Of a stretch of DNA of 39,527 nucleotides, positions 91 through 38,605 are shown one piece after another. The translations under genes were made by a program, and so were the position numbers. The number at the start of each line of letters is the position of its first letter. The stretch's first letter is position 1. The stretch lies in IMG/VR virus record IMGVR_UViG_3300043409_001144, positions 1 to 39,527 of that record. One strand, 5' to 3'. Below the pieces are notes generated by a model that searched no databases, was not told the DNA's origin, and was given only the letters and a program-made list of their open reading frames with translations. The DNA comes from a virus.

Positions 91-204
91 AACCTGCCTG
101 ACCCTCTGGCCTCGTACCGTAGGCGGCAGAGTGACGGGCCGGCAAGTAAGGAATTTATTGAAGCAGTACAGCACGATTGGCAAGATCACGAACGATCAAA
201 GTAA
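91..204 (+). CDS. C-terminal end of an unidentified gene (partial)
   Basis: An open frame runs in from the left edge and stops at TAA 202-204. The last residues read roughly ASKEFIEAVQHDWQDHERSK, a charged, helical-looking tail. The part before about base 140 is more GC-rich than the rest of the window and may be corrupted by the neighbouring artefact. No family is recognised. If the genome is circular it could be the tail of the CI-like repressor cut at the right end or of a gene just after it, but no sequence joins the two. Confidence 0.35.
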   Translation, partial: NLPDPLASYRRRQSDGPASKEFIEAVQHDWQDHERSK

Positions 205-313: not shown

Positions 314-538
314 ATGACAACAATAAGTTTTGATACTGACAGACTGGTTGAAGATTTAAAATCTTCTGGACTTCCTCATGACCAAGCTCGTGCTATCGTT
401 CGTGGCTTAGTAGAAGCACAAACAGAGTTAGCAACTAAAGTGGATTTGGTGCAGCTTGAGCAGCGCTTAACGATAAAAATAGGCAGCATGATGGTAGTCG
501 CCATTGGTATTGTTGCTGCCCTAGTTAAGTTATACTAA
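314..538 (+). CDS. DUF1640-type small membrane-anchored coiled-coil protein
   Basis: 74 residues. The N-terminal half resembles the bacterial DUF1640 layout: a short region starting TTISFDTDRLVEDLKSSGL, an amphipathic helix with an AxAIVRGLVEAQTELATK pattern, then a heptad-like stretch. One hydrophobic C-terminal membrane helix (about residues 52-73) ends near the stop. GAGGAC a few bases before the ATG can serve as ribosome binding site. The family has no settled function; bacterial members are small membrane proteins that probably oligomerise by the coiled coil. It heads the plus-strand group that ends at the terminator near 1600. Such genes are common on host chromosomes, so this may be cargo picked up from a host. 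Confidence 0.7.
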   Translation: MTTISFDTDRLVEDLKSSGLPHDQARAIVRGLVEAQTELATKVDLVQLEQRLTIKIGSMMVVAIGIVAALVKLY

Positions 539-577
539 GTACAAGAGCTGATTAACAGCCGTAGCTTTGGAGAGAAT

Positions 578-901
578 ATGAGACCAAATCAATTAGTCAT
601 TAGATGCTTTGCAAAACAAGAAGAAGGCTTGTGGATAGCTATTTGTGTTGATTTTACCTTAGCTGCTCAAGCCTCCTCATTCTCTGAAGCAAAGAAAAAA
701 CTGGAAGAACAAATATATTATTATGTGAAAGAGGCTTTGGAAGATAAAGAATATGGCGCTCAATTAATTAATAGAAGCGCTCCATTATCGTCATGGATTG
801 AATATTACTACATTAAATTAACTGTCCTTATTAATCATAAAACCAATCTAATTTTTAACGAAACAATGCCTATGCGCCCTGCATGTGGAGTACAATTATG
901 A
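578..901 (+). CDS. HicB-like / DUF1902-like protein
   Basis: 107 residues. The first 50 follow the HicB partial RNase H-like fold: a strand with IRCFAKQEEGLWIAICVDF, then LAAQASSFSEAKKKLEEQI, which matches the usual pattern of a strand, an alanine-rich turn and a helix. There is no obvious C-terminal HTH or RHH DNA-binding segment of the kind classical HicB antitoxins have, and no HicA toxin next to it. It is therefore an orphan HicB-fold protein, perhaps a regulator or partner of its neighbours. GGAGAG precedes the ATG. The next gene starts inside its last codons (ATG at 898), showing translational coupling. Confidence 0.6.
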   Translation: MRPNQLVIRCFAKQEEGLWIAICVDFTLAAQASSFSEAKKKLEEQIYYYVKEALEDKEYGAQLINRSAPLSSWIEYYYIKLTVLINHKTNLIFNETMPMRPACGVQL

Positions 902-1143
902 ATGATTTAGAAAAAGAAATAGCCACATATAATAGATTATTCAAGACATTACTTTCCGATGAAGGTAAATTTGTCGTAATAAATGGAGACGATTTGCTTG
1001 GTGTTTATGTCGCTTATGAAGATGCTTTAAAAATTGGTTATGAAAAATGCGGCATAGATAAGAGATTTTTAGTTAAAAAAATATTATCTGATGAAAACGT
1101 GTCTTATTTTAGTAGAGACCTAAATAATTCATGCCTAGCGTAA
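898..1143 (+). CDS. DUF5678-like small protein
   Basis: 81 residues from the ATG at 898, which overlaps the stop of the HicB-like gene (ATGA) and is preceded by a GTGGAG ribosome site. A start at 883 is possible but less likely. The pattern GKFVVINGDDLLGVYVAYEDALKIGY followed by FLVKKI matches the DUF5678 type, small alpha/beta proteins that, from memory, are often found just upstream of retropepsin-like proteases, as here. Function is unknown. It overlaps the protease gene by 13 bases, so the two are surely co-translated. Confidence 0.65.
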   Translation: MNDLEKEIATYNRLFKTLLSDEGKFVVINGDDLLGVYVAYEDALKIGYEKCGIDKRFLVKKILSDENVSYFSRDLNNSCLA

Positions 1144-1571
1144 ATTCTCAGATCACCTTTGGCGGCCCAATAATAGAAATAAGTATTGGAGTTTCAATAC
1201 CAAGGCGAGACTTATTATTATCATTGGGAATGCCTGTTTCACCGCCTGTAACATGTAAATTATTAATTGATACAGGGGCTTCATGTACTTGCATTGATCC
1301 TTGGGTTATCGACAGTTTAAATATAGTCCCTAGTGGATTTACAACTATCCATACTCCATCTACTAACTCAGGTTCAAATCACCAATGTAGCCAATTTGAT
1401 GTATGTTTATCTATACCTCACCCACATATTAATAGACATTTTCACAATATCCCTGTTATTGAATCAAACTTTGTTCATCAAGGTATAGATGGGCTGCTTG
1501 GTAGAGATATTTTAGAAGGATGTGTATTTATTTATAATGGTGAAACAAGTTTTTATACTCTTTCTTTTTAA
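1131..1571 (+). CDS. Retropepsin-like (clan AA) aspartic protease
   Basis: 146 residues. The catalytic motif of clan AA proteases is clear: hydrophobic residues then DTGAS at 47-51 (LLIDTGASCTCID). The C-terminal half has the supporting GIDGLLGRDIL segment that follows the flap and closes the psi-loop in retroviral-type proteases. One such monomer carries one Asp, so the active enzyme should be a homodimer. No signal peptide or membrane segment is seen, so it is probably cytoplasmic. The start overlaps the DUF5678-like gene by 13 bases, and the gene ends just before a rho-independent terminator. Substrate unknown; the upstream small proteins are possible partners or substrates. Confidence 0.8.
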   Translation: MPSVNSQITFGGPIIEISIGVSIPRRDLLLSLGMPVSPPVTCKLLIDTGASCTCIDPWVIDSLNIVPSGFTTIHTPSTNSGSNHQCSQFDVCLSIPHPHINRHFHNIPVIESNFVHQGIDGLLGRDILEGCVFIYNGETSFYTLSF

Positions 1572-1595
1572 AATAACCCACCCCAATCCCCGCCT

Positions 1596-1619
1596 AAGCC
1601 TCTTAACCGAGGCTTTTTA
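1596..1619 (+). terminator. Rho-independent terminator after the protease gene
   Basis: AAGCCTC (1596-1602) and GAGGCTT (1609-1615) form a perfect 7-bp stem with a 6-base loop followed by a T-rich tail. It closes the plus-strand group that begins at 314 and separates it from the early promoter at 1705. Confidence 0.85.
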
Positions 1620-1704
1620 TTGCCTATCGAAAAATAAATCCCGTCATTAATCAATCACTTATGGTTTTAGGCGTTATTTTGTTTGAAATATCCACTATCA
1701 GTGC

Positions 1705-1732
1705 TTGCATTAATCCCCTAATGGTGGATAAT
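1705..1732 (+). promoter_or_regulatory. Candidate early rightward promoter (PR-like)
   Basis: TTGCAT (1705-1710) and GATAAT (1727-1732) are separated by 16 bases, which are occupied by the operator at 1711-1731. It points at the structured leader and the recombination operon that starts at 2059. The -10 box GATAAT and its overlap with the operator copy the arrangement in front of the cro-like gene at the right end of the window. Confidence 0.55.
1711..1731. promoter_or_regulatory. CI/Cro-type operator, distal copy
   Basis: TAATCC, nine bases, GGATAA. It matches 17 of 21 positions with the reverse complement of the operator in the cI/cro gap (39088-39108). A further half site TATCCAC (1689-1695) is an exact inverted repeat of GTGGATA (1724-1730). 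Overlap with the -10 box implies repression of rightward transcription by the CI-like or Cro-like protein. Confidence 0.6.
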
Positions 1733-1747
1733 AACATCCAACGAAAC

Positions 1748-1898
1748 GGAAAATCCCCGTAGAAGGATTGCAAGGCCGCCTGATAGCGATAGACCTTAGC
1801 AGCAACGCTCTTTGTACAAATAGCATTTTAACGAGTGCTATTTATACAACGTCCATGTTGTTACCTCACCTGCTCCGTAGCGATACGGGGCTTTTTTT
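1748..1898 (+). ncRNA. Structured leader or small RNA ending in a terminator
   Basis: No convincing gene. Successive hairpins can be drawn: AATCC/GGATT near 1755-1770; a 12-bp stem with one mismatch between 1814-1825 and 1836-1847; ACAAC/GTTGT near 1846-1861; and the terminator at 1872-1898. The stretch lies just downstream of the early promoter, so its transcript would be a short terminated RNA unless antitermination lets polymerase through to the operon at 2059. It could be an antitermination site, an attenuator or an independent sRNA. Confidence 0.45.
1872..1898 (+). terminator. Rho-independent terminator in the early leader
   Basis: GCTCCGTA (1872-1879) pairs with TACGGGGC (1884-1891) across a GCGA loop (one G-U pair), followed by seven T. 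It lies between the early promoter and the first gene of the early operon, the place where an antiterminated phage puts a control terminator. Confidence 0.85.
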
Positions 1899-1903
1899 GA
1901 GGG

Positions 1904-1969
1904 TTTATAAGACTGTCTATCTCGCGGATTTTTTTGAGAGACTTGACGCTTGGTAGGCAGTCTTATGAA
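1904..1969 (+). repeat. Long imperfect inverted repeat in the early leader
   Basis: 1904-1919 and 1954-1969 are inverted repeats over 16 positions with only two G-U-compatible mismatches. A short inner stem TCTC/GAGA sits at 1920-1939 around a T run. In RNA this is a stable arm just past the terminator. ACGCA/TGCGT at 1988-2004 forms another small hairpin before the first gene. The rest of 1970-2058 has no gene; a ribosome site AAGGGG lies at its end. Confidence 0.5.
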
Positions 1970-2058
1970 TACAGCTTAGACAACTAAACGCACTTCTCTT
2001 GCGTGTAATGTCCGAAACGGTGTGAAGCCGAAACAATAATAATTTTAAGGGGTACAAA

Positions 2059-2316
2059 ATGATTAAGTACGATTACGCAAGTAAAGAAAGACAAGACTTC
2101 ATTAAGAGTGAAGCGAAAAAGGTATTTCTTCCGGTTGTTGAAGAATACGAGGAGTTCCACTACGAACCTGAATCTGATAGCAAGTTCCTGATCGTCATGC
2201 TTGTTGGCTTTGTTTTACTCATGTCGCTTTACTTGGTTAATACCCAAGCCAAGGCTGATGGTGACTGTATGCCGATCTCGCCAATGTCGCTTGTTGATTC
2301 TTTTGGGGGTGAATAA
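2059..2316 (+). CDS. Small single-pass membrane protein, unknown function
   Basis: 85 residues. An acidic, charged N-terminal half (residues 1-44) is followed by one strong membrane helix (about 44-64, KFLIVMLVGFVLLMSLYLV) and a short polar C-terminal tail. There is no signal peptidase site, so type II or III topology is possible. AAGGGG precedes the ATG by 8 bases. It is the first gene of the early plus-strand operon and its stop overlaps the next start (TAATG). No family recognised. Confidence 0.6.
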   Translation: MIKYDYASKERQDFIKSEAKKVFLPVVEEYEEFHYEPESDSKFLIVMLVGFVLLMSLYLVNTQAKADGDCMPISPMSLVDSFGGE

Positions 2317-2498
2317 TGGCTACATCTATGAGTGTTCACTATGTCGAGAATCTGGCTTTCAAACAAGAAAACCTTTTTCTGCCCAACGATAAAATGATCC
2401 GGTTAATGCGTGTGACTGGAGTTGATAAAACGGGCGAGACTAACGAAGTTGTTTTCTTCTTGACTGATGATTGTTTGATCGAGGAGGTGCTTACATGA
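2316..2498 (+). CDS. Hypothetical phage protein, 60 aa
   Basis: Starts on the TAATG overlap with the gene before and ends on an ATGA overlap with the gene after, both hallmarks of real, coupled phage genes. The sequence has short alternating beta-like segments (VHYVENLAF, EVVFFLTDDCLIEEVL) and no recognisable domain. Confidence 0.55.
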   Translation: MATSMSVHYVENLAFKQENLFLPNDKMIRLMRVTGVDKTGETNEVVFFLTDDCLIEEVLT

Positions 2499-2656
2499 TT
2501 AAGTTTTTATTTGAAAATCTTGCTGACTATGACTTTAGACGGAACAAGCCAGCAAGACGGATAAACAACCAATTTTACTTGGCTAGATACGGCAATCTTT
2601 ATGCGATGGCTGAATCTAGCGCCCATTATACAGAGGTTTATGATGACTATTTATAA
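2495..2656 (+). CDS. Hypothetical phage protein, 53 aa
   Basis: The ATG at 2495 is chosen because GAGGAGG lies 8 bases before it and it forms an ATGA overlap with the previous stop. The product is 53 residues, tyrosine-rich (ARYGNLY, SSAHYTEVYDDYL), with no known motif. The ERF gene starts within its 3' end. Confidence 0.5.
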   Translation: MIKFLFENLADYDFRRNKPARRINNQFYLARYGNLYAMAESSAHYTEVYDDYL

Positions 2657-3170
2657 GAAATTGCAAGAAGCACGAATACGCTTGCAAGCTACGCCACTTA
2701 ATAAATCCGGTGTTAATGCTTTTGCTAAATATTCCTATTTTGAATTAGGCGATTACTTGCCACAGATTCAAGCCATTTTTAATGACGTTGGCTTAACGGG
2801 CATTGTGTCGTTTGGTATCGAATTGGCCGAGTTGAACATCTTTGAACATGAAGGTGACGGCAAGATAACCATTACTTCGCCCATGTCCTCAGCGGCTTTA
2901 AAGGGTTGTCATGACGTGCAAAACTTAGGCGCTGTGCAAACTTACCAAAGGCGTTACTTGTGGCAATCAGCGCTTGAGATTGTCGAGCATGACGCTTTAG
3001 ACGCAACAACCGGACAAGAAAAACAGCCGGACTATAAAGCCTTGCTGGAAACGGCAAAGAATGTTACCCAACTGGGATCTGCTTGGCAAATGATACCCAA
3101 GCCCATGCAACCTAATTTTGTTGAGATTAAGGACGAAATGAAATCTAAATTAACCGAGGTGGCAGCATGA
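2643..3170 (+). CDS. erf: ERF family single-strand DNA annealing protein
   Basis: About 175 residues from ATG 2643 (2640 is an equal alternative; AGAGG at 2632-2636 fits both). The N-terminal core YKKLQEARIRLQ, then NKSGVNAFAKYSYFELGDYLPQI, and later SSAALKGCHDVQNLGAVQTYQRRYLWQSALEI, is the ERF pattern: a conserved glycine-rich stretch and the QTYxRRYL box. ERF proteins form rings on single-stranded DNA and anneal complementary strands, as P22 Erf does for genome circularisation. The exonuclease and SSB genes that follow in the same operon complete a phage recombination set. Confidence 0.85.
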   Translation: MTIYKKLQEARIRLQATPLNKSGVNAFAKYSYFELGDYLPQIQAIFNDVGLTGIVSFGIELAELNIFEHEGDGKITITSPMSSAALKGCHDVQNLGAVQTYQRRYLWQSALEIVEHDALDATTGQEKQPDYKALLETAKNVTQLGSAWQMIPKPMQPNFVEIKDEMKSKLTEVAA

Positions 3171-3862
3171 GCATCCTTCATATTGATATTGAATCCATCC
3201 CTAGCCAAAAGAAAGGGGTTGTCGAGGCTATCCGCGAAAGTATTAAACCGCCTGCAACTATGTCAGTGCAAGCCACGATTGATAAATGGTACGCGGAAAA
3301 AGCCGATGATGCCGCCAATGAACAGCACCGTAAACAGTCCTTTGATGGCGCATTGGGCGAGATCATCTCGATAGCGTGGGCACTTGATGATGGCGAGGTT
3401 AATGTTAATTATCGTTATGATGATAATGAGGCTGGCTTGTTACGCGCGTTCTTTGTCGATATTAACGAGTTGACGGACAAGTACGGACAAAAGGCCCACA
3501 TCTCTACTTGGTCAGGGCATTACATTACAGGCTTCGACTTGCGGTTCATCTGGCAACGCTGCGTTATGTTAGGCGTGAGGCCATCCGTTCATATTCCGTA
3601 TGACGCTAAACCTTGGGATAGCAAAGTCTATGACACTAAGATTGAGTGGACTGGCTTAGGTCAAAGCTCCGGTATTGGTAGCCTAGACGCACTTAGCAAG
3701 GCTTTTGGCTTCGAGGGGAAAGGTGACATTGACGGCTCGAAAGTTTATGACTACTGGCTAGATGGACGTATTGAAGAAATAGCCGAATACAACAAGCAAG
3801 ATGTTGTTAAGTGCCGCGCTTTGTATAACAAAATGAATTTTATAACTGAGAGAATAGTATGA
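3167..3862 (+). CDS. DnaQ-like 3'-5' exonuclease (PolB-like type)
   Basis: 231 residues. The DEDDy exonuclease motifs are present in order: ExoI as D7-I-E9 (HIDIES), ExoII around D124 (YITGFDLRFIWQR), ExoIII as Y208-NKQ-D212 (YNKQDVVKCRALY). There is no polymerase domain, so it is a stand-alone nuclease of the kind often paired with phage recombinases. It would make or trim single-stranded ends for the ERF protein. Its start overlaps the ERF stop (ATGA), and it ends overlapping an inserted HNH gene. Confidence 0.8.
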   Translation: MSILHIDIESIPSQKKGVVEAIRESIKPPATMSVQATIDKWYAEKADDAANEQHRKQSFDGALGEIISIAWALDDGEVNVNYRYDDNEAGLLRAFFVDINELTDKYGQKAHISTWSGHYITGFDLRFIWQRCVMLGVRPSVHIPYDAKPWDSKVYDTKIEWTGLGQSSGIGSLDALSKAFGFEGKGDIDGSKVYDYWLDGRIEEIAEYNKQDVVKCRALYNKMNFITERIV

Positions 3863-4374
3863 GTAATGAACTTACTCTTGAAAGGCTTAAATATCTTGTA
3901 AGTTATGATCCTGATTCAGGGGTATTTACAGGCCAAAAAGGAATAAATGCCAGAGGTAGGCCGATTGGAGGAATTGAGTGTGGGAGTTTAGCTAAAAGAA
4001 GAAGTGATAAGTATTATCGGGTAATGAGTATAGATAACGTGCGTTATTTATCACATAGATTAGCTTGGTTATATTCATTTGGTGAGTTTCCAAAAAATGA
4101 AATAGATCATATTGATGGGGATAGCTTAAATAATAAAATCAATAATTTAAGGGATGTAACTAGAATCGAAAACTCTCAAAATATTAGAAAAGCTAGTTCT
4201 AATAATAAAACGGGGTATCTAGGAGTATTCCTTCATAAAGAAACAGGTAAATATAGATCAACCATTATGACCAACAGAAAGAGAGTGTCACTTGGTTTAT
4301 TTACAAATCCTGAAGAAGCCTCTATTGCATATATAAATGCAAAAAGAGAGCTTCATTCATCTTGCACTATATAA
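3859..4374 (+). CDS. HNH homing endonuclease with AP2 domain
   Basis: 171 residues. The HNH_3 core is SHRLAWLYSFGEFPKNEIDHIDGDSLNNKINNLRDV in outline (about 70-108), with the IDHIDGD metal-site motif. A C-terminal AP2-type DNA-binding domain follows (TGYLGVFLHKETGKYRS to SLGLFTNPEEASIAYINAKRELH). Such enzymes spread as free-standing homing elements. The gene is more AT-rich than its neighbours and sits between the exonuclease and ssb, as expected for an insertion. It is coupled to the exonuclease by ATGA, and its end abuts the ssb ribosome site. Confidence 0.85.
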   Translation: MSNELTLERLKYLVSYDPDSGVFTGQKGINARGRPIGGIECGSLAKRRSDKYYRVMSIDNVRYLSHRLAWLYSFGEFPKNEIDHIDGDSLNNKINNLRDVTRIENSQNIRKASSNNKTGYLGVFLHKETGKYRSTIMTNRKRVSLGLFTNPEEASIAYINAKRELHSSCTI

Positions 4375-4384
4375 GGAGTAATTT

Positions 4385-4768
4385 ATTTCAAACGTATTTA
4401 CAGCAGTATGCACAGTCACCAGAGATTGTGAGGTTCGCTATTTGCCCAGTGGTGGTGCAGTTTTAACGGTTAATGTCGCTAATAATCAGGGTTTTGGGGA
4501 TAAGCAAACCACCATGTTTATCCGTGTGGCATTGTTCGGTAAACGTGCCGAAGGCAACCTGAAAGACTATTTATTGAAAGGCCAGCAAGTCAATATTTCG
4601 GGTGAATTACACACCAATGAGTACCAAGCGAAAGACGGCACGACTAAAACCAGCATGGAGTTGAACGCCAATATTATTGACTTGGTAGGCGGTAGAAAAG
4701 AAGGTGCAGCACCAAGACAAGCAGCGCCTAAAGCTGATGTTGCTTATGATGGCGACATACCTTTCTAG
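4385..4768 (+). CDS. ssb: Single-stranded DNA-binding protein with apparent ATT start
   Basis: OB-fold SSB of 127 residues if begun at ATT 4385. The frame upstream of the first ordinary initiation codon (TTG 4442) reads ISNVFTAVCTVTRDCEVRY, which matches the universal SSB N-terminus (MSNVF..). AAGGAG (4373-4378) lies 6 bases before this ATT, and no ATG, GTG or TTG is in frame between. The body has GGAVLTVNVANN and TTMFIRVALFGKRAE, and the tail DGDIPF is the acidic tip that recruits partner proteins. Either ATT is the true start, as in a few bacterial genes such as infC, or ATG was mutated or misread. An internal TTG start would remove the first strand. Confidence 0.85.
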   Translation: MSNVFTAVCTVTRDCEVRYLPSGGAVLTVNVANNQGFGDKQTTMFIRVALFGKRAEGNLKDYLLKGQQVNISGELHTNEYQAKDGTTKTSMELNANIIDLVGGRKEGAAPRQAAPKADVAYDGDIPF

Positions 4769-4777
4769 GAGCCTGTA

Positions 4778-5134
4778 ATGGATAGATCAAAATTAATTTC
4801 AAGACGGGAAATTGGCGAACTGCTAAACGTAACTAAAGAACATGTCGGTGTGTTGGATGATCGGGGTAAATTACCTTGCGCCTCCATCACGCTGGATGTA
4901 GGCGTTAATCGAGGCAAACAGCCCAAATACTACGATAGAGAAACAATATTACATTGGATCTATGCCAGAGAACGCAAAAAGTTTGGCGCTACGGGACAAG
5001 TTACATTCCAACAGATATTTGCTGGCAACTTTGAATCCATGTACATGCGACGACGCTATGAAATGAAACGTATGCGTGCGCGACTCTCTAGGCCAAAGAC
5101 TCAAATTATAAGAATAAAAGGTGAAGTGGGATGA
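4778..5134 (+). CDS. HTH DNA-binding phage protein
   Basis: 118 residues. The N-terminal half has a MerR/excisionase-like helix-turn-helix look (LISRREIGELLNVTKEHVGVLDDRGKLP). The C-terminal half is very basic (MYMRRRYEMKRMRARLSRPK), suited to nucleic acid binding. AGGAG precedes the ATG by 7 bases, and the end overlaps the next gene by ATGA. A role in replication or transcription control is inferred from position only. Confidence 0.55.
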   Translation: MDRSKLISRREIGELLNVTKEHVGVLDDRGKLPCASITLDVGVNRGKQPKYYDRETILHWIYARERKKFGATGQVTFQQIFAGNFESMYMRRRYEMKRMRARLSRPKTQIIRIKGEVG

Positions 5135-5364
5135 ATAACTTAAGCAAATTGAATGATGTCTTATTCGATCAACTGATAAGGCTTACTGATGACACGGTAG
5201 GCGATGACTATTTAAGCACTGAAATTGAACGCAGCAAAGCGGTTAGCTCTATTGCTCGTGACATTATTTCAAACTCTAAACTTGCCCTTGATATTGTCAC
5301 TGTGCAAAAAAACATGGGTAGCGTTAAAGACTTACCCAAGATGCTTGAAAATGAACGGGCATAA
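5131..5364 (+). CDS. Conserved hypothetical phage protein, 77 aa
   Basis: An all-helical small protein with the pattern LNDVLFDQLIRL, then EIERSKAVSSIARDIISNSKLALDI, which I recall from many phages and prophages without assigned function. It starts on an ATGA overlap with the HTH gene, and the next gene begins inside its last 14 bases. Confidence 0.6.
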   Translation: MNNLSKLNDVLFDQLIRLTDDTVGDDYLSTEIERSKAVSSIARDIISNSKLALDIVTVQKNMGSVKDLPKMLENERA

Positions 5365-5929
5365 GTGGCAACCCTATCAAATAGCCTGGTTAAAAGATAA
5401 CCGTTATGAGCTTAATAATGTCGAGCTTGTCGCCCAATTTAACCGGACGTTTAGCCTCAATCTTATCAGTGACCAGATTATTCAAGCCTGTAAACGTCGT
5501 CGATTTCAGCATAAATACATAGGCTATCAAAAAGGCCATGTGCCTTGGAACGCTGGACTGAAAGGCGTTAATGGTAGCAGCTCAACGACCTTCAAAAAGG
5601 GTAATCCCAACCACAATACTCGCCCGGTAGGATCTGAGAGAATAACCAAAGATGGGTATTGGGAAGTAAAGGTAGCCGAACCGAGGCAGTGGGACGCTAA
5701 ACACCGAATTGTTTGGGAATCAGTACACGGCCCCATACCAAAAGGAAGTCTGGTGCTATTTCTCAGTGATGACAAGCTAAACGTCAACATAGAGAACCTG
5801 CAAATGGTGACACGGGCCGAATTAGCTGTATTGAATCGACATGAAAAGTATAGCAAACAAGCCCCAGAAGTCAGGCGGGCATTAATTAACGTGGTCAGGC
5901 TGGAACAAGCCGCAAAGAGGGCAGCATGA
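5351..5929 (+). CDS. HNH endonuclease family protein
   Basis: 192 residues from ATG 5351, chosen because the sequence before it (from 5225) only reads through the preceding gene in another frame. The N-terminal 60 residues look like a DNA-binding helix set (WLKDNRYELNNVELVAQFNRTF). The middle has the HNH_3-like pattern PVGSERITKDGYWEVKVAEP, then KHRIVWESVHGPIPKGSLVLFLS, NVNIENLQMVTRAEL. The usual HxxG-D core is partly replaced (VLFLSDDKLN), as in a widespread phage subfamily. It may be a Nin-region-style nuclease or a homing enzyme; it overlaps both neighbours, which argues for a resident gene. Confidence 0.75.
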   Translation: MNGHKWQPYQIAWLKDNRYELNNVELVAQFNRTFSLNLISDQIIQACKRRRFQHKYIGYQKGHVPWNAGLKGVNGSSSTTFKKGNPNHNTRPVGSERITKDGYWEVKVAEPRQWDAKHRIVWESVHGPIPKGSLVLFLSDDKLNVNIENLQMVTRAELAVLNRHEKYSKQAPEVRRALINVVRLEQAAKRAA

Positions 5930-6486
5930 AACTTTTAAGAATGACAGATCCTAGTTTTGGGGGTGACATTGTGACTAATAATGACAATGCTGGAGAATTA
6001 AAAAATAAAGAAATAGATTATAAAAATCTTGATGAGATCGAATTAAAAAACTTAATTGAAATAGAAATTGATAAACGAGACGATATTGATAACCAGATTT
6101 TAATTTATGGCAGGACTAGTGTTGATGATTGGTCTTTAAAGGCAACTAGGGCATTAAATGCAACAAAAAGAAGATTATTTTTTTTAAGGCGTTGTTTAAA
6201 TAAAATAACCAAGATACGCGCTGCAGAAATTAAGGAAGAAAATATAGAAAGAGCCAAGCAATTAATTGTAGATTCCATTGAAAGAAAGGAAAAGAAAAAA
6301 TACGATCATTTAATAACCACAATAAACGAGGATAAAAAATTTAGATCTATAGCTAGAAAAATGCTAGACAAGGATGTTTTTAAAATGCTTGCCGCTGAAT
6401 ATAACAGATTACACATTGTTGAGTGTGTTGCTGAATATGAAAGATTAAACATTGTTGAGTGTGAGGAAGTAGAGGTGACATTGTGA
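5926..6486 (+). CDS. Charged hypothetical protein with a C-terminal tandem repeat
   Basis: 186 residues, mostly Lys/Glu/Asp/Ile-rich helices that could form coiled coil (about 25-135). The end carries two near-identical units of about 13 residues (AEYNRLHIVECV, AEYERLNIVECE), mirrored by a DNA duplication at about 6393-6464. No domain is recognised. Markedly more AT-rich than the genes before it. Coupled to the preceding gene by ATGA. Confidence 0.55.
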   Translation: MKLLRMTDPSFGGDIVTNNDNAGELKNKEIDYKNLDEIELKNLIEIEIDKRDDIDNQILIYGRTSVDDWSLKATRALNATKRRLFFLRRCLNKITKIRAAEIKEENIERAKQLIVDSIERKEKKKYDHLITTINEDKKFRSIARKMLDKDVFKMLAAEYNRLHIVECVAEYERLNIVECEEVEVTL

Positions 6487-6523
6487 GTAAACAGCAAGAG
6501 TCTTTATGCGTGGGAGTCTATTG

Positions 6524-6703
6524 ATGAAACTGAAAGATTTACCGCTTAACGCTGTATTCACCATTACCGGTGATGAATCAAAAACTAAATACATAGTATT
6601 TAGAGATGATGGCGCATTTAGATTTTGCATGACAGGAACCGGCTCAATGGTTCATTTTGCAGAAAGTTTTAATGTCGATAAAGCAACAAAAGATAAAGAG
6701 TAG
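6524..6703 (+). CDS. Hypothetical phage protein, 59 aa
   Basis: ATG 6524 is preferred because GGGAG lies about 8 bases upstream; an in-frame start at 6506 exists without a good site. The sequence (LKDLPLNAVFTITGDESKTKYIVFRDDGAF) looks like a compact beta fold of the type seen in many short phage early proteins. Function unknown. Confidence 0.55.
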   Translation: MKLKDLPLNAVFTITGDESKTKYIVFRDDGAFRFCMTGTGSMVHFAESFNVDKATKDKE

Positions 6704-6708
6704 ATACC

Positions 6709-7074
6709 ATGAGCATTGAAAGAGAGTTGTTAAAAGAATTAATAACCAAAGACATGGTTCAATACTACTACCCAAAATTAGTAAAAAATGTAGAAGCCAT
6801 CCTCGCCCAACCTGAGCAAGAGCCTGAAGCATGGATAATAGTTAATAAAGAAACAGGCTATAGAACACAAGTATCTGACCTAACACCATTTTTGTACCAC
6901 AGGGAAATATTTGAAGTGATACCACTCTATACAGCACCGCCAAAACGTGAGCCTTTGAGTGACAAAGAGATAACTAAAAACACTCCAAAATTGATACATA
7001 TAGGAGAACGATTAGCGTTCCATGCTGGGGTGAGGTTTGCTGAAAAACATCACGGCATTGGAGGTGAGGAATGA
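6709..7074 (+). CDS. Ea22-like/DUF551-like early phage protein, paralogue 1
   Basis: 121 residues. It shares its layout with the next two genes: MSxERELL at the start, AQPEQEPEAW after a first helix, PLYTAPPKREPLSDKEI in the middle, and a C-terminal HHGIGGEE. These are the cassette pieces of Ea22-like proteins found in the early regions of lambdoid phages, whose function is poorly known. Coupled to the next paralogue by ATGA. Confidence 0.65.
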   Translation: MSIERELLKELITKDMVQYYYPKLVKNVEAILAQPEQEPEAWIIVNKETGYRTQVSDLTPFLYHREIFEVIPLYTAPPKREPLSDKEITKNTPKLIHIGERLAFHAGVRFAEKHHGIGGEE

Positions 7075-7412
7075 GTAAAGAAAGAGAGTTGTTGCAATTT
7101 ATTTTAAACAGCCATGCTGCAAATGGCTCAAAGTTAGACAAGTTTTGGAAAGCTAAGATAGAAGAACTACTCGCCCAACCTGAGCAAGAGCCTGAGCCTC
7201 TTTTAGCAGAAACAAAGATTGAATGGTATGGGAAAGGGTTTAGACAAGGGGTCAATGAGTTTGCACCACCCAAACCCTTAACAGAAGATGTTATATATGC
7301 TCTTGATAAAGAAGGGGTTGTTGAAAATATGGACGATCATCAAGTCAGATACGTCATTAGATGGATAAGAAGAGTAGAAAAAGCACATGGCATTGGAGGT
7401 GGTAATGAGTAA
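7071..7412 (+). CDS. Ea22-like early phage protein, paralogue 2
   Basis: 113 residues: MSKERELL, then LLAQPEQEPEPLLAETKIEWYG, a divergent middle lacking the PLYTAPPKREP box, and the shared end EKAHGIGG. Its first 23 bases are repeated almost exactly at the start of the third paralogue, and the CAACCTGAGCAAGAGCCTG block occurs in all three genes, so the array arose by duplication and can probably recombine. Confidence 0.65.
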   Translation: MSKERELLQFILNSHAANGSKLDKFWKAKIEELLAQPEQEPEPLLAETKIEWYGKGFRQGVNEFAPPKPLTEDVIYALDKEGVVENMDDHQVRYVIRWIRRVEKAHGIGGGNE

Positions 7413-7725
7413 AGAAAGAGAGTTGTTAAGTAGGGTATTAGAAGCCGATGATGGTAATAGCGAGTTTTATATTGACGGCAAACTGGAATGGGATATAAAA
7501 GAACTCCTCTCCCAACCTGAGCAAGAGCCTGTGGCTTGGATGTACGACTGGAATATTATAGGAGATGAAGAATACGGAGATACAAAATATGATGCGCTTA
7601 CAAGAGCCGAATCTATAACAAATAATCGCGCAATTACTAATATACAACCACTATACACAACACCAAAACGTGAGCCTTTGAGTGATGAAGAAATATACAA
7701 ATTAAGTTTAGAAAATTTTAAATGA
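7405..7725 (+). CDS. Ea22-like early phage protein, paralogue 3, with premature TGA
   Basis: 107 residues from ATG 7405, overlapping the stop of paralogue 2 by 8 bases: MSKERELL, LLSQPEQEPVAWMYDW, PLYTTPKREPLSDEEIY. The frame stops at TGA 7723-7725. Past that stop the same frame continues for 22 codons through FARAIEKAHGIGGEE to the TGA at 7791-7793, which overlaps the start of the excisionase-like gene. This is exactly the family's normal C-terminus. One base change (for example TGG to TGA) has therefore truncated the protein, unless the stop is read through. Confidence 0.65.
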   Translation: MSKERELLSRVLEADDGNSEFYIDGKLEWDIKELLSQPEQEPVAWMYDWNIIGDEEYGDTKYDALTRAESITNNRAITNIQPLYTTPKREPLSDEEIYKLSLENFK

Positions 7726-7790
7726 TTGTTAACCGATAGAATTAACTTTGCAAGAGCAATAGAAAAAGCACACGGTATTGGAGGTGAGGA

Positions 7791-8123
7791 ATGAAAATTG
7801 AACCTAGAGTAATCAGAGCAGGACAAGCACCAGCCTATTTGGGCATGTCAGCCCCTCATTTTAATACGCATGTACGTCCTTTTCTTGTTGAAGTGAAAGA
7901 CGCAGCAAAAATGATTAGTTTTGACAGGCTTGACTTAGATGCTTGGTGGGAACAACATAAACAGGCTAACGGAAAGCCAGCTCAGGAGAAAGTATTATGG
8001 CAAAAAGAACACCAGGACTTAGAAAGAAAGGCAACATCTGGCACATCGAGAAAGTCATCACAGGTCAACTCATTCGAGTTAGCACTGGTGAGGCTGAACT
8101 CGAAGCAGCAGAACGAATATTAG
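7791..8123 (+). CDS. Excisionase-like protein overlapping the integrase gene
   Basis: 110 residues. The N-terminal 65 residues have a winged-helix or AlpA-like look (VIRAGQAPAYLGMSAPHFNTHVRPFLVEV, then ISFDRLDLDAWWEQHK), the family commonly found just before phage integrases. The C-terminal 43 residues (SGTSRKSSQVNSFELAL) are encoded in the same DNA as the integrase N-terminus, 127 bases in another frame. I recall the same SGTS-type tail in relatives, so the overlap appears genuine rather than a run-on. Likely role: directing excision with the integrase. Confidence 0.7.
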   Translation: MKIEPRVIRAGQAPAYLGMSAPHFNTHVRPFLVEVKDAAKMISFDRLDLDAWWEQHKQANGKPAQEKVLWQKEHQDLERKATSGTSRKSSQVNSFELALVRLNSKQQNEY

Positions 8124-9061
8124 CTCTGTTGATTGATCGGCAACGAAAGATTCATATCTATGGCGAGAAGGTTGAGCGGTCTTTTAACGAAGCTGCTGCT
8201 CGTTATGTTGATGAGAATGAGCATAAGAAATCGTTACAGACTGACATTTATTCGTTAAAAGCAATTATGCCTTATATCGGTAATTTAAATTTACGTAGCA
8301 TTCACTCAGGTTCATTTGATGAATTTATTGCCGATAGAAAAGCCGCTGGACGGTCTGCCGGAACGATAACCCGTGACTTATCTGTTGTGCGTAGTGTCTT
8401 AAGCACAGCAAATCGGTTATGGCGTGATGATATGGGCAATCCTTGGTTAGAAACAAGGCCGCTGTTGCCCGTAGTTCAAGGTAAGAAGCGGAAACCAAGA
8501 CCTATATCTTTTGAGGAACAAGAAGGTTTATTGAAAGCCTTACCAGACTACTTGGCAGAAATGGTTTTGTTTGCTCTGAATACTGGCTTAAGAGATCAAG
8601 AACTTTGCGGCATGAAATGGACAGATGAATGTAAGGTTAGTGGCCTTGATACATCTGTCTTTGTCATCGAAGAAGAAAGAGCAAAAAATACACACGAAAG
8701 AATTGTACCACTCAACTCGGTAGCAATGTCTATTGTCAATAAAAGACGTGGCAACAAATCTGAATTTGTATTTGATTATAAGGGTCGTAAGTTGGCCCAG
8801 ATGACTAATGGCTCTTGGAAACGTGTTAGAGCATCATTAGGGCTTGAAGGCGTGCGTATTCATGATCTACGCCATACGTTCGGTATGCGTTTAAGAGCGG
8901 CTGGTGTGACTTATGAAGATAGACAAGATTTATTGGGTCATCATGCCGGACGCATTACAACACATTACTCAAAAGTTGAAATTGCTCGACTAATTGAGAG
9001 CGTAGAAATGCTGTGTGAAACTCGAAAACCCGAACTTACATTAGTTAGACGGGCGATATAA
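7997..9061 (+). CDS. int: Tyrosine integrase
   Basis: 354 residues. Catalytic residues are in order: R199 (NTGLRDQEL), K230 (AKNTHER), H289-xx-R292 (HDLRHTFGMRL), H315 (LLGHHAG), Y324 (TTHYSK). The N-terminus KRTPGLRKKGNIWHIEK is the typical arm-binding start of this phage integrase subfamily, followed by a SAM-like core-binding domain (about 62-160). AGGAG precedes the ATG. It catalyses site-specific integration and excision of the phage genome. Its 5' end overlaps the excisionase-like gene, and the putative att repeats follow at once. Confidence 0.92.
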   Translation: MAKRTPGLRKKGNIWHIEKVITGQLIRVSTGEAELEAAERILALLIDRQRKIHIYGEKVERSFNEAAARYVDENEHKKSLQTDIYSLKAIMPYIGNLNLRSIHSGSFDEFIADRKAAGRSAGTITRDLSVVRSVLSTANRLWRDDMGNPWLETRPLLPVVQGKKRKPRPISFEEQEGLLKALPDYLAEMVLFALNTGLRDQELCGMKWTDECKVSGLDTSVFVIEEERAKNTHERIVPLNSVAMSIVNKRRGNKSEFVFDYKGRKLAQMTNGSWKRVRASLGLEGVRIHDLRHTFGMRLRAAGVTYEDRQDLLGHHAGRITTHYSKVEIARLIESVEMLCETRKPELTLVRRAI

Positions 9062-9070
9062 AATTAAACT

Positions 9071-9273
9071 AAACCGTCAAAATCACGGAAGTGCTTTTTT
9101 AAAACCTATGTAACTAACTGATTTTAAATGAGAATAAAAAAGAGAATACATCATGGATTATGGTGTACTAACTTACAATCTTCTTATAAATCAATAACTT
9201 AACTTTTCTATTTCCGTTAGCAAACCCAATAGAATCGACTGTACTTGCAATTAAAACCGTCAAAATCACGGAA
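9071..9273. repeat. Pair of 20-bp direct repeats next to int (candidate attP or arm sites)
   Basis: AAACCGTCAAAATCACGGAA occurs at 9071-9090 and again, identically, at 9254-9273. Inside each copy CCGT and ACGG form an inverted repeat around 7 bases, the layout of a tyrosine-recombinase core site. Their position directly behind int fits attP, but two copies in one place could equally be Int/Xis accessory sites or operators. The sequence between them is AT-rich and holds no gene. No tRNA-like sequence is present. Confidence 0.5.
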
Positions 9274-9407
9274 CACCTATGGCAATCAAAAACTATTTAA
9301 TTGGTTCAAACCGGAACACAAATGTAACCGATTTAAAGAGTACACTAAACTTAATTTAAAGATTTGCGAGTATTGTTACAAACATCTAAGAATGTGGGAT
9401 TAAATAG

Positions 9408-9444
9408 TGTGAGCAACTCACAAATTAAATGTGAGCAACTCACA
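9408..9444. promoter_or_regulatory. Tandem 15-bp palindromes, likely paired protein-binding sites
   Basis: TGTGAGCAACTCACA occurs at 9408-9422 and 9430-9444. Each is an inverted repeat (TGTGAG/CTCACA) and the centres are 22 bp apart, two helical turns, so two dimers would bind the same face of DNA. They lie 120 bases before the small secreted-protein gene in otherwise non-coding sequence. Confidence 0.55.
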
Positions 9445-9491
9445 GAATTAAATTCGCACCTATTTAAAAACTGGCCGAGTTTCTTTTACTT

Positions 9492-9531
9492 TAGGAAAAA
9501 TAGGAAAAATAGGAAATTCCCATATTTCCTA
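9492..9531. repeat. Three tandem 9-mers plus an inverted copy
   Basis: TAGGAAAAA at 9492-9500 and 9501-9509, then TAGGAAATT at 9510-9518, followed by ATTTCCTA at 9524-9531, which pairs with TAGGAAAT at 9510-9517. The block lies just before the secreted-protein gene and may be an upstream promoter element or a small iteron set. The rest of 9062-9563 is AT-rich without any gene I can support. Confidence 0.45.
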
Positions 9532-9563
9532 TATTCGCAGTATTGACAAACAGGAAAAAACTA

Positions 9564-9824
9564 ATGAAAACATTTATACTACTTACTACCTTACTTTTCT
9601 CAGCACAAACATTTGCATGGAGTGAAGGAGAAGAAGAAAATCTGCAACAACTTCAACAATTAGCTAGAGATAGTGCTGTTATCAATCAAATGCGTAGCCA
9701 AGAATGGCAGCAGTCATTGGATACTCAAGAATTAATACGCCAAGAACGTATTAATAACTATCGGACTAATGCTATCTTGTTAGATAACCAATACAGTAAT
9801 CAATATAACCAAAACAGGCAATAG
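9564..9824 (+). CDS. Small secreted, glutamine-rich protein
   Basis: 86 residues from ATG 9564, which has AGGA 8 bases upstream; an in-frame TTG at 9543 is less likely. A signal peptide is evident: MK, hydrophobic TFILLTTLLFSA, then an AxA-type site before WSEGEE (cut after QTFA, about residue 17). The mature part is a Gln/Asn/Arg-rich helix with no cysteine. It stands alone between the att region and the end of the late operon, facing the opposite way. This is a typical place for a lysogenic-conversion gene exported to the periplasm. No family recognised. Confidence 0.6.
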   Translation: MKTFILLTTLLFSAQTFAWSEGEEENLQQLQQLARDSAVINQMRSQEWQQSLDTQELIRQERINNYRTNAILLDNQYSNQYNQNRQ

Positions 9825-9825
9825 T

Positions 9826-9850
9826 AAAAACGGGAGCTATTTAAACTCCC
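9826..9850 (-). terminator. Terminator of the late operon
   Basis: Read on the minus strand, GGGAG and CTCCC form a 5-bp stem around a 9-base loop, followed by GTTTTTAC. It lies just past the stop of the last late gene at 9863 and between the two converging gene sets. Confidence 0.6.
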
Positions 9851-9862
9851 AAGTGAGCGCAA

Positions 9863-10810
9863 TTATCTATACCTATTAATAAGCTGATCCAATGGTATAT
9901 CGCTTAACTTACCACCTGCCAATGGATAAGTATCCCGCCTTTGTTGCATATTCATATTTATGCGATCTTGTGTAGCTCTGGCTTGTGCTTCTCCGGTTAA
10001 GCGTCTATAAGCATTTTGTTGCGCCATTGGAAGCATTGCCATTGCTTGTTCTGTACTAGGAATTTCACCGCTTGCAACATCACGCCTTAGCATTGCTAAT
10101 GCTTCTTCTTTCATTTGTTCAGAATTCCCACCCATTGCCCATCCTTCCCTGTCTTGGATGGCATGCTGTAGCTCATGAGGGATAACGTATTCTGCGCTTT
10201 TTCTAGGCAAATCACTTCTAATCTGTATTGCATTACCAGTAAAAGATCCTAATGTATTTTTTGATTTTGGTATAAATTCTGCATTTAATTTCATTAAATC
10301 AGAATATTCTTCACTTAAAGGGTAATGCTTATATATGTCTGATACATTTAAACTATTATTTATCATATCTCGACCAGTATTTTCAAAAGCATTATATCTA
10401 TTCATTACTAAATCATTATAATTCCCGCTTCCTTTTAAAAAAGCTCTACTATCATCAATCTCACTAAACAACGATTTATCAGGCATACGACCTATAAGGT
10501 GAGACTTCCATACTTCAGCAGGGTCTATACCAGCATTTAATAGTTTCTCAGCTTCAGCAGCTTTTACAGGATTCCAATTTGCAGCATTTTTGCCTATAAA
10601 TGTTAACCCCATCGGTGCATTTAAAGCAGCAGCAGTTCCCCAGTCACGCATAGCTTCGGGCGATTTAAAGTCTGCATTGCTGGGAATTAATTGACCTACA
10701 CCTTTTTGCAGTACAGAAGCAAAGCTATCCATCCTAGGGTTATTATTAAACAACTGGCCGTAATCTTGACCGGCAGACTTTAGGTTATTGACGATCTCTT
10801 CAAGTGTCAT
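9863..10810 (-). CDS. Late-operon protein with HELQH metallopeptidase-like motif
   Basis: 315 residues. Near residue 210 it has VIPHELQHAIQDREGWAMGGN, the zinc-peptidase-like HExxH pattern seen in large polyvalent-protein-associated (LPD) domains. The C-terminal GEAQARATQDR and PLAGGKLSDIPLDQLI also match the end of such domains. LPD pieces are typical of phage and plasmid proteins delivered into the recipient cell with DNA. As the last gene of the virion operon, right after the lytic transglycosylase, it is a candidate ejected protein acting early in infection. The zincin activity is inferred only from the motif; a third ligand is not obvious. Confidence 0.65.
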   Translation of the reverse strand: MTLEEIVNNLKSAGQDYGQLFNNNPRMDSFASVLQKGVGQLIPSNADFKSPEAMRDWGTAAALNAPMGLTFIGKNAANWNPVKAAEAEKLLNAGIDPAEVWKSHLIGRMPDKSLFSEIDDSRAFLKGSGNYNDLVMNRYNAFENTGRDMINNSLNVSDIYKHYPLSEEYSDLMKLNAEFIPKSKNTLGSFTGNAIQIRSDLPRKSAEYVIPHELQHAIQDREGWAMGGNSEQMKEEALAMLRRDVASGEIPSTEQAMAMLPMAQQNAYRRLTGEAQARATQDRINMNMQQRRDTYPLAGGKLSDIPLDQLINRYR

Positions 10811-20311: not shown

Positions 20312-20583
20312 TAGATAACTGGATCAACAGTCAACACAACACTTGGATCGGCTGCTAACTCCTCTTTGCTAAACCCAAATCTTTCGATTGTGCTTAAATC
20401 TTCAACGTCTAGCCAGATAGGTTCTAATGCTTCACCTGCATACTCAGGTTGGTTATAGTCATCTGGGTACACTTGGCTGTCTTGTTTGCGTGTCATAGAG
20501 CCTTTTAATAACGCTATGAACTCAGCATGACGATCAGTACCTACTACAGCGTCTAAATCTTCTCGTGTGTTAATAATATTCAT
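20311..20583 (-). CDS. Small tail-region protein downstream of the DGR
   Basis: 90 residues from ATG 20583, which overlaps the last 14 bases of the reverse transcriptase gene; a longer frame from 20640 lies wholly in the RT gene and is rejected. The sequence MNIINTREDLDAVVGTDRHAEFIALLKGS looks like a short phage assembly protein: a helix, then a proline- and acid-rich tail (YPDDYNQPEYAG; LDVEDLSTIERFGFSKEEL). No family recognised. Confidence 0.55.
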   Translation of the reverse strand: MNIINTREDLDAVVGTDRHAEFIALLKGSMTRKQDSQVYPDDYNQPEYAGEALEPIWLDVEDLSTIERFGFSKEELAADPSVVLTVDPVI

Positions 20584-21568
20584 ATTTGTTATCCAGCCAG
20601 TTAAATAAATTGTGAGTATCAGCCCAACTTGCATGACCACGCCATGAAGCTAAGAATTTGGTGAGGTTTAAAAACTCATGGTGTTCTATAAAATGCTTAA
20701 TCTTATGCTTTGCTCGTAATACCGAGTCCTTTCTGATTAATTTGTGCGTATTCCAAATGCGATAACCTAAAAAATTAATACCCCGTTTAACACTAGAACA
20801 TTGCCATCTACTAATAGATAACTTTAAGTTTTCTTTTGAAAATTCCTCAATCCTGTAAAAATCATTCCGCAATCTTTCTGGATCATCACCAAGAATCACT
20901 ACGTCATCCATGTATCTTGCCCATCTTCTGTGCTTTAGCTCATGGTGAATAAAGTTATCTACTTTTGAGCCATAGATATTGGCAAATAATTGACTAGTAA
21001 GACTACCAATGGGGATGCCAGTACCTTTACTAAAAAGCAGTTGGTCTATAATTAAGCATGTTTTTTCACATTTAATTTTTCTCTTTATCATCGCTTTCAA
21101 AATATCGTGATCGACACTAGGAAAGAATTTTCTATAATCTGTTTTTAAATAGTACAAAGGTTTTGGTGATCTTCTTAGTTCGGATTGTATATATTTAACG
21201 CCTGCGTGCGTCCCCATGCCAGTTCGACAGGCAAAGGTATTTGGTAGAAACATTGCCTCAAAAATCTCACCTATCACCGCCACTAAAGCATGTTGAGCCA
21301 ATCTATCTTTAAACTCTAATGCTGAAATTAATCGCTGTTTTGGTTCATATACATAAAACTGCTTATACTGACCAATAGTATAAGTACCCTCTAAAAGCTC
21401 TTTTGCCAACGCCTCAATATTCAACGCCTTAAATTCCTTAAACTCAAGGTAGCCATAAGTCATTCTTTTAGCCAATGCGGTTCTATCAAAAGCCAGCAAC
21501 ATATTTTCTTTACTGGTAATTTTTTCAATTAAATTATTATGTGCTTTCATGCTGGTAGCCCGATTCAT
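20570..21568 (-). CDS. Diversity-generating retroelement reverse transcriptase
   Basis: 332 residues. Palm motifs are clear: motif A with D144 (YLKTDYRKFFPSVDH), motif B region GIPIGSLTSQLFANIYG (184-200) with IGxxxSQ, the form that marks DGR reverse transcriptases instead of QGxxxSP, and motif C Y219-MDD (RWARYMDDVVILGDD). Size is normal for the family, with no added maturase or nuclease domain. It copies the template-repeat RNA into error-prone cDNA with adenine-specific mutation, together with Avd. A downstream ATG at 21550 is an alternative start. It directly follows TR, as in phage BPP-1. Confidence 0.95.
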   Translation of the reverse strand: MNRATSMKAHNNLIEKITSKENMLLAFDRTALAKRMTYGYLEFKEFKALNIEALAKELLEGTYTIGQYKQFYVYEPKQRLISALEFKDRLAQHALVAVIGEIFEAMFLPNTFACRTGMGTHAGVKYIQSELRRSPKPLYYLKTDYRKFFPSVDHDILKAMIKRKIKCEKTCLIIDQLLFSKGTGIPIGSLTSQLFANIYGSKVDNFIHHELKHRRWARYMDDVVILGDDPERLRNDFYRIEEFSKENLKLSISRWQCSSVKRGINFLGYRIWNTHKLIRKDSVLRAKHKIKHFIEHHEFLNLTKFLASWRGHASWADTHNLFNWLDNKYEYY

Positions 21569-21697
21569 TAAAAACTACTAAGGGCATCCCAGACCTTGAA
21601 ATGTATTTGCCGAAGCAGGACAAAATGGCTGACCATATAATAAAAGGCCGGCCTACAATGCCGTAGCGATTGCAAAGCGAAAGAACTAATATCGTCA

Positions 21698-21811
21698 CGA
21701 CACCACGCCCACCAATGTTGTTATTCGAATTCGTAGGAGAGTTGTTCCAATTCGAACAACGCGAACCTGTATTCGCACCATTGTTCCAGTTGCCACTAAA
21801 GATGACAGCGT
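21698..21811 (-). repeat. DGR template repeat (TR)
   Basis: 114 bp, starting one base after the avd stop. It aligns without gaps with 22237-22350 (VR). On the coding strand TR has 29 adenines; 20 are different bases in VR, while of 85 other positions only one differs. Read in the VR frame, TR is rich in AAC/AAT codons (NWNNGANTG, NWNNSPTNSNNN), the codons that give the widest range when A is mutated. It is non-coding and, with flanking sequence to 21569, provides the template RNA. The remaining space to the RT start holds a GGCCGGCC-type palindrome (21645-21654) and no gene. Confidence 0.95.
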
Positions 21812-21812
21812 G

Positions 21813-22187
21813 TTACCCATTTTGCCCCTTACGCTTAGTAATCCATGACCCTAGCATAGACCCCACCTCCGCAAGCATGATTAAGACAACTTGGTGCTGG
21901 TGAGGTGTTATGCCGCGTGTACTCGGTATTACTAAGAAACGTAACCAAAACCGCAGCTGCGCTAATCCTGCATCTGCTTCATATATTTTACTGATTTGAT
22001 TACTCTTGCCGGCTATATAAAATAACTCAGCTTGATTAAACAAAGTCTGTAAAAACATATCCCTTACTACCCCATGCTTTCTCGGTAACGATTGCGCAAT
22101 GGGGTATAAATAATGAATCACCGCTTCGTACTTCTCGATGATCGCCATCTGACTATAATTAACAACTGCTTGTTTTATAGGTTGCAT
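21813..22187 (-). CDS. avd: DGR accessory variability determinant (Avd)
   Basis: 124 residues, all helical, in the place and size of BPP-1 Avd (about 128). Helices are evident at MAIIEKYEAVIHYLYPIAQSL, RDMFLQTLFNQAELFYIAGK, ADAGLAQLRFWLRFLV and HQHQVVLIMLAEVGSMLGSWI, the four-helix-bundle pattern related to 23S rRNA intervening proteins. The family forms a basic pentamer that binds the reverse transcriptase and template RNA and is needed for mutagenic retrohoming. It starts about 27 bases after the VR gene stop and ends one base before TR. Confidence 0.9.
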   Translation of the reverse strand: MQPIKQAVVNYSQMAIIEKYEAVIHYLYPIAQSLPRKHGVVRDMFLQTLFNQAELFYIAGKSNQISKIYEADAGLAQLRFWLRFLVIPSTRGITPHQHQVVLIMLAEVGSMLGSWITKRKGQNG

Positions 22188-22197
22188 TTTAAAGGCC

Positions 22198-22213
22198 AGT
22201 GGCTTTCGCCACT
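22198..22213 (-). other. DGR hairpin with GAAA tetraloop after VR
   Basis: On the coding strand AGTGGC, GAAA, GCCACT: a 6-bp perfect stem with a GNRA-type tetraloop directly behind the stop codon of the variable protein. A hairpin or cruciform with a similar tetraloop just past VR is a known feature of the BPP-1 DGR and raises the efficiency of retrohoming into the target. Confidence 0.8.
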
Positions 22214-23209: not shown

Positions 23210-23532
23210 CAGCTTTTTCCTTGTACTAAGCACATCTTGCCATCTGAAGATTGGAGAAATCGGTTCATCTCACGCCCTGCAATCTTGCTGTCTGGGCAGT
23301 TCAAGTCAAAGCCAGCCCTGATTGCCTTCTCGAACATAATGAACGGTATTGTTGCCACCATGCGTCCGAATGACTCGCCACTCTGTGCGCCCAAGTCATG
23401 CAAGATGCCAGGGTTATTACGCATCTGTGCATTTCGTGCCAAGATGAGCTTCTCGGTAGGCTGAGTGGTGATATGTGTCAGGGTATTTGAGTGATTGTCA
23501 TAGTGCATATCACTCTTGATGACGCTATCCAT
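23209..23532 (-). CDS. Hypothetical virion-associated protein, 107 aa
   Basis: The sequence MDSVIKSDMHYDNHSNTLTHITTQ resembles proteins found right behind major capsid genes in other podoviruses; then helices LILARNAQMRNNPGIL and MVATIPFIMFEKAIRAGFDLN. No domain recognised. Both ends overlap neighbours (TAATG and TGATG), so it is translated in line with the lectin-fold tail gene. Confidence 0.6.
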   Translation of the reverse strand: MDSVIKSDMHYDNHSNTLTHITTQPTEKLILARNAQMRNNPGILHDLGAQSGESFGRMVATIPFIMFEKAIRAGFDLNCPDSKIAGREMNRFLQSSDGKMCLVQGKS

Positions 23533-38590: not shown

Positions 38591-38605
38591 ATTTAATGTC
38601 GATCC

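Follow-up and report, generated by a model that had tools for sequence, protein, structure and literature searches.

The 39,527-base window analysed here comprises an entire IMG/VR record that is classed as linear, yet its two ends very probably adjoin and carry the right and left operators (OR and OL) of a lambda-type immunity region. Comparison with related phages suggests that the contig is the circular genome of a temperate phage, which the assembler opened inside the repressor gene cI at a homopolymeric G tract. A sequence-only reading of the same DNA had already proposed that the ends join and that a lambda-like immunity region results; it had not placed the break within cI at the poly-G tract, nor had it recognized bases 91-204 as the missing 3' end of the repressor gene. 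The G tract itself varies in length between relatives, and we lean towards the view that it renders the repressor phase-variable.

The proposal of joined ends had started from an element at 39088-39108, TTATCCACCAATAAGGGATAT, said to match 1711-1731 at 17 of 21 positions in reverse complement, with a GATAAT box covered by both copies. We reproduced the match exactly and found the hexamers at 1727-1732 and, on the minus strand, at 39092-39087. Taken alone, such a match is only moderately unlikely to arise by chance, as five out of 300 Markov-1 sequences of window length hold one. The similarity is, however, longer than first described: 1673-1732 and 39087-39146 agree in reverse complement at 44 of 60 positions (73%) with a single gap (E 5.7e-4 across the contig as a whole), and this stretch takes in two operators per place. 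The genome was also scanned for further matches, as the sequence-only reading had suggested, using a position weight matrix made from the eight operator sites of the relatives L005 and L006 only, the window being left out. The four operator sites listed in Table 1 ranked first to fourth. The next-best site in the window, excluding the same sites read on the other strand, reached 14.3 bits. In 300 Markov-1 sequences the maximum averaged 13.7 bits, and two of the 300 reached 20. A third operator was not detected by the matrix in either region, each place showing only two high-scoring sites. OR1 overlaps the -10 box of the promoter PR, and OL2 overlaps the GATAAT assigned to PL. The promoter scan did not report PL, and its -35 hexamer is poor in the window; in several relatives this hexamer reads TTGACT or TTGACA.

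Table 1 Features of the window and their coordinates (operator scores are those of the position weight matrix).
Feature	Position	Strand	Remarks
Poly-C/poly-G junk at contig end	1-90		non-phage; without counterpart in the closest relative, L003
3' end of cI past the G tract	91-204	+	NLPDPLASYRRRQSDGPASKEFIEAVQHDWQDHERSK, then stop; translation read from sequence; homologous to the tail of the uninterrupted L003 cI
Variable accessory genes between cI and OL	314-1571	+	missing from L003; other genes take their place in L005 and L006
Accessory gene, coiled-coil/TM type	314-538	+	
Accessory gene, HicB-like	578-901	+	
Accessory gene without assignment	883-1143	+	
Accessory gene, aspartyl-protease-like	1131-1571	+	retropepsin-like; Asp_protease_2, E 5.9e-6
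Terminator-like hairpin upstream of PL	1596-1615	+	would close the cI operon
Operator OL1	1690-1706	+	ATCCACTATCAGTGCTT; 19.8 bits
Promoter PL	1705-1732	+	TTGCAT, 16 bases, GATAAT; read by eye
Operator OL2	1713-1729	-	ATCCACCATTAGGGGAT; 23.6 bits
Terminator-like hairpin in PL leader	1872-1898	+	
PL early operon	2059-9061	+	ERF, exonuclease, SSB, integrase (gene at 7997-9061)
Right arm		-	from the cro-like gene to ParB-Dam-type methyltransferase, helicase, sigma-70 region-4 protein, terminase and structural genes; terminase and structural roles assigned partly by eye, partly from TerL matches
cro-like HTH gene	38886-39080	-	
Promoter PR	39087-39115	-	TTGTAA, 17 bases, GATAAT; 6 bases before the cro ATG
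Operator OR1	39090-39106	+	ATCCACCAATAAGGGAT; 21.9 bits
Operator OR2	39114-39130	-	ATCCACAATTAATGGTT; 22.3 bits
5' part of cI (HTH domain and linker)	39154-39527	+	interrupted where the G tract begins (GTGGG)

Evidence for joined ends comes from the closest relative, L003 (record IMGVR_UViG_3300044715_000695, 35,982 bases), which we regard as circular because it carries an exact 127-base terminal repeat. L003 contains the equivalent of window 37970-39527, then, after 10 bases, that of 91-283, followed by 1588-3843. Both window ends thus lie side by side in a circular relative, in full agreement with the earlier proposal. Between the flanking homologous bases L003 has only a run of 13 G and GTG, compared with the 90 bases of C and G runs in the window. 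The order of genes is the same in other relatives. L005 and L004, which are identical to each other, and L006 all begin this region with cro and cI; next come a homologue of 314-573 and 1578-1733 in the first two, and roughly 5 kb of different genes followed by 1677-1733 in L006. Accordingly, cI, accessory genes and PL are contiguous on one strand in L003, L005 and L006, and in the window only after its ends have been joined. The arrangement that results is cro, OR, cI, accessory genes, OL/PL and an early operon ending in int, which is the lambda-like region that had been predicted. On the evidence of the relatives, bases 39527 and 91 would be neighbours apart from the G tract; the assembler presumably halted at this tract, perhaps because artefactual poly-G reads overlapped it. 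Once the ends are joined, cI would span from 39154 through the tract to 204 and would be followed by the accessory genes and then PL.

If the sites are operators of CI, they are expected to change together with the DNA-binding domain of the repressor. This was examined at ten loci chosen to represent differing CI N-termini. Within one phage, OR and OL mostly share a sequence, and both indeed change by type along with the DNA-binding domain of cI, while the DNA downstream of OL stays alike. The operators read ATCCAC...GGGAT in the window type, ATCCGC...GCGGAT in L062, ATAGG-N5-CCTAT in L049, AATACTATAGTATT in L050, ATACA/TGTAT in L060, ATACG/CGTAT in L063, TACCAAATGGTA in L056, ATAGG-N5-TGGAT in L055 and are of a GTTACC/GATAAC type in L057. 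In eight of the ten immunity types, the phage's own OL proved to be the best partner of its OR, and only five out of 500,000 random pairings reached the observed pairing sum. One exception is L048: its own OL belongs to the L056 type, and the best partner for its OR is the OL of L055, of which the truncated segment used here contained one site out of two. In the other, L056, the OL of L048 scores better than its own. Since its OR and OL belong to different types, we regard L048 as either a naturally arisen mosaic or a chimeric contig. Note that L036 and L040, for which the early leader was not found, and L047, in which the start of cI is cut, were left out of the pairing, and that L137, L141 and L142 were not among the loci analysed for operators.

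These data also bear on the question of which protein the sites serve. Operators for Cro only, or for a regulator of the host, would likewise be expected to overlap PR and PL and to adjoin cro, as these sites do. Nevertheless, operator type follows the HTH type of cI, and L006 combines a different Cro with a type-1 CI and type-1-like operators, so that we consider this explanation very improbable. Cro may also use the operators. That the resemblance is a mere accident in an AT-rich genome has a practically negligible chance: a single 17/21 match does turn up in random sequences, but the 60-bp double-site match, the ranking of the four sites and the type-by-type pairing of OR and OL in the relatives lead us to reject it, unless the relatives are all misassembled alike. 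We infer that CI would bind two operators between cro and cI and two more upstream of the left early operon, and that it would thereby shut both PR, with cro and the right arm, and PL, with the recombination genes up to int.

The surroundings of the immunity region yielded further observations. The PL leader (1738-1960) is strongly structured (z -3.2) and contains a terminator-like hairpin. A hairpin followed by a T run is also found in the PL leader of the aligned relatives despite differing sequence. Pairing of bases 1750-1761 with the terminator's 3' half is conceivable, which makes an antiterminator/terminator switch possible. Within the PR operon, about 400 bases at 38000-38400 lack a long open reading frame, are conserved in L003 and have an RNA fold z of -1.9; a search for an Rfam match to this stretch gave none. 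On the minus strand, the single gene at 36733-37785 joins a ParB-like N-terminal part to a C-terminal Dam methyltransferase; in its place L003 has a different Dam-like gene (by eye). A diversity-generating retroelement occupies 20570-23233 on the minus strand, with the phage DGR RNA RF03022 at 21551-21678, a reverse transcriptase at 20570-21568 and an Mtd-like target protein at 22214-23233. Directly past int, the exact 19-base direct repeat AACCGTCAAAATCACGGAA occurs at 9072 and 9255, 183 bases apart; the two copies are likely integrase sites. In L006, the cargo between cI and OL (7051-10116) includes a HicA/HicB-like pair and a 428-aa protein which we take to resemble IscB from its RRXRR and HNH seen by eye.

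In the relatives, cI encodes an HTH domain, a short helical part and a conserved end, TTGACNNCNCMNNYNRAAAATGNG, after which the G run begins. The run is present with both flanks in 19 contigs and measures 8 (L036, L056), 10 (L006, L061), 11 (L004, L005, L050, L053, L142), 12 (L040, L060), 13 (L003) or 14 bases (L047, L048, L049, L062, L063, L137, L141). The window as well as L043 and L052 end within it. In L057 the tract is interrupted, GTG TGG GGG G replacing the pure run, and the frame is kept. The C-terminal tail is in frame in 15 of the 19 contigs, including L142, which ends 26 bases past the G run and whose frame was read from context, and out of frame in L006, L040, L060 and L061. At an expectation of one third, at least 15 of 19 has a binomial probability of 6e-5, a value that overstates the excess because the contigs are related. 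When L004 (identical to L005) and L047 (99.4% like L048) are left aside, 13 of 17 remain in frame (P = 3e-4), which is still optimistic for the same reason. Close relatives differ in the tract: L060 has 12 and L061 10 G (96.8% identity over 3.8 kb), both out of frame with different ends, and L006 and L036, which are 96.5% identical over 5 kb, have 10 and 8 G and differ in frame as well. Of the glycine codons in 21 window genes, among which the truncated cI was counted, just 10.6% are GGG, and since the tract uses GGG exclusively it does not reflect ordinary codon use. A structure model of one full-length CI (mean pLDDT 65, too weak for a fold search) predicts the HTH domain, one helix, a disordered stretch at residues 110-149 and a long helix, and would place the glycines of the tract within the disordered stretch.

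Some candidates were dropped. A conserved TTGACA before the tract was considered as a promoter and discarded, as no -10 box was seen by eye at the right distance. A pattern match in Saccharospirillum impatiens (L046), located after a gene identified by eye as encoding a type II topoisomerase subunit, and one in L139 were treated as chance, as neither place has a cI. A related CI in L007 (513-917) lacks the G tract and ends in short repeats (PASQPACEPACEPS), another low-complexity C-terminus.

Substitution patterns indicate that the tail is real protein sequence under purifying selection in the fused frame. For the long tail type, the three pairs among L048, L049 and L050 gave pS values of 0.34-0.61 against pN values of 0.035-0.068 in this frame, and the opposite relation in both remaining frames. 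A similar trend, based on few differences, is seen for the short tail (L003, L062, L063). One conserved linker precedes tails of dissimilar sequence, and a given tail can follow dissimilar HTH domains; the linker with the tract is thus a junction of modules. No Pfam family fits the tail, and PHROGs returned a single weak match for one of four tails (E 0.046). Searching with the tail gave no match in phages and none in 369 genomes of the class to which the L046 genome belongs, the latter search being run without a positive control; the full L048 CI had no match in plasmids. An S24 domain was detected neither in the tract-bearing CIs scanned nor in the CI fragment of the window. The sister phage L055 has a repressor with a Peptidase S24 domain at the same place (E 6.7e-22), and so does L058 as read by eye; in L054 no cI was seen.

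The tract shows two features of a contingency locus: it is a long simple repeat within coding sequence, and its length differs between near relatives and thereby changes the frame. We therefore propose, with slightly more confidence than doubt, that slippage in the tract reversibly joins the C-terminal tail to the repressor or removes it and so alters CI. Some phages or lysogens would then be unable to hold lysogeny, and switching by the tract could take the place of SOS cleavage. This latter step is possible but rather unlikely to be correct; it derives from the presence of S24 in L055 and L058 and its absence from the tract-bearing CIs scanned, a contrast that amounts to a correlation from few lineages and no more. 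The boldest reading combines these elements and is put forward tentatively: in a family of environmental temperate phages, a poly-G contingency tract would have replaced the SOS-cleavable C-terminal domain, and tract and tail would be exchanged as a module between phages with unlike DNA-binding domains and matching operators. Full-length and truncated CI would then alternate, and lysogeny would be lost and regained by random, heritable frame shifts and not by DNA-damage signalling.

In principle, the tract could also be neutral or structural, that is, a poly-glycine linker which was expanded by slippage, is held in frame and has no switching function; contigs out of frame would then stem from misassembly or from dead phages. 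We take this alternative seriously while giving it somewhat less than an even chance. A flexible linker of this kind would yield most of the same observations: it also accommodates the 15 in-frame contigs, fits the location of the tract in a predicted disordered linker and agrees with the interrupted yet in-frame tract of L057. Moreover, long G runs are error-prone in short-read assemblies, and L060, L061 and L006 could contain decaying repressors, both of which speak against phase variation. Against a neutral linker, however, stand the exclusive use of GGG where GGT and GGC are the preferred codons, the retention of at least 8 G in 19 contigs although slippage would endanger the repressor, and the existence of four out-of-frame contigs, including one closely related pair whose tracts measure 12 and 10 G. 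Alternatively, the tail could be a separate protein translated from a GTG past the tract, with the tract acting as Shine-Dalgarno sequence and a GTGA stop-start overlap with cI. GTGA does follow the tract directly in many contigs, and cI of L061 would stop exactly there. On the other hand, L004, L005, L040 and L049 have GTA at this position, L006 and L036 lack a start codon there, and the in-frame tail in 15 of 19 contigs would be needless for a separate gene. We consider two genes improbable.

The immunity region resembles those of lambda and P22 in several respects: cro and cI are divergent with operators between them, accessory genes lie on the same strand as cI, a second operator set of the same specificity covers the opposite early promoter, the left operon ends in int and the arms have the same order. 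In lambda, the order is cI-rex-PL, and each region holds three operators. The present phage differs from lambda and P22 in that two operators were found per region, in that its repressor has a poly-G tract and a new tail and lacks an S24 domain, and in that no antitermination protein was identified at the level of detail examined. Short XRE/CI phage repressors without S24 domain are known from the TP901-1 type. They share with the CI described here an HTH domain and a short helical C-terminal part; what sets the present repressors apart is that a G tract encodes a poly-glycine linker and that several dissimilar tails are shared by dissimilar HTH domains. A literature search, from whose coverage subscription papers were largely absent, retrieved no instance of a homopolymeric contingency tract in the immunity repressor of a phage. 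The nearest case found is neuO, a gene borne by phage CUS-3 with heptamer repeats that form a simple-sequence contingency locus (PMC13001214). A change of repeat length within the coding sequence switches the reading frame of neuO (PMC13001214), as proposed here for cI; neuO is a cargo gene with heptamers, whereas the present tract consists of G only, resides in the phage's own immunity repressor and is a putative switch.

Ten loci with unlike repressors and mostly matched OR and OL within one phage family constitute a natural data set for repressor specificity. The tract suggests why genomes of this kind become "linear" contigs broken at cI, and catalogue entries on completeness and immunity may mislead in such cases. 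Should the tract truly act as a switch, it would give a temperate phage a kind of bet-hedging for which the literature search turned up no description: the choice between lysis and lysogeny would depend on random changes of frame in the repressor that the phage itself encodes.
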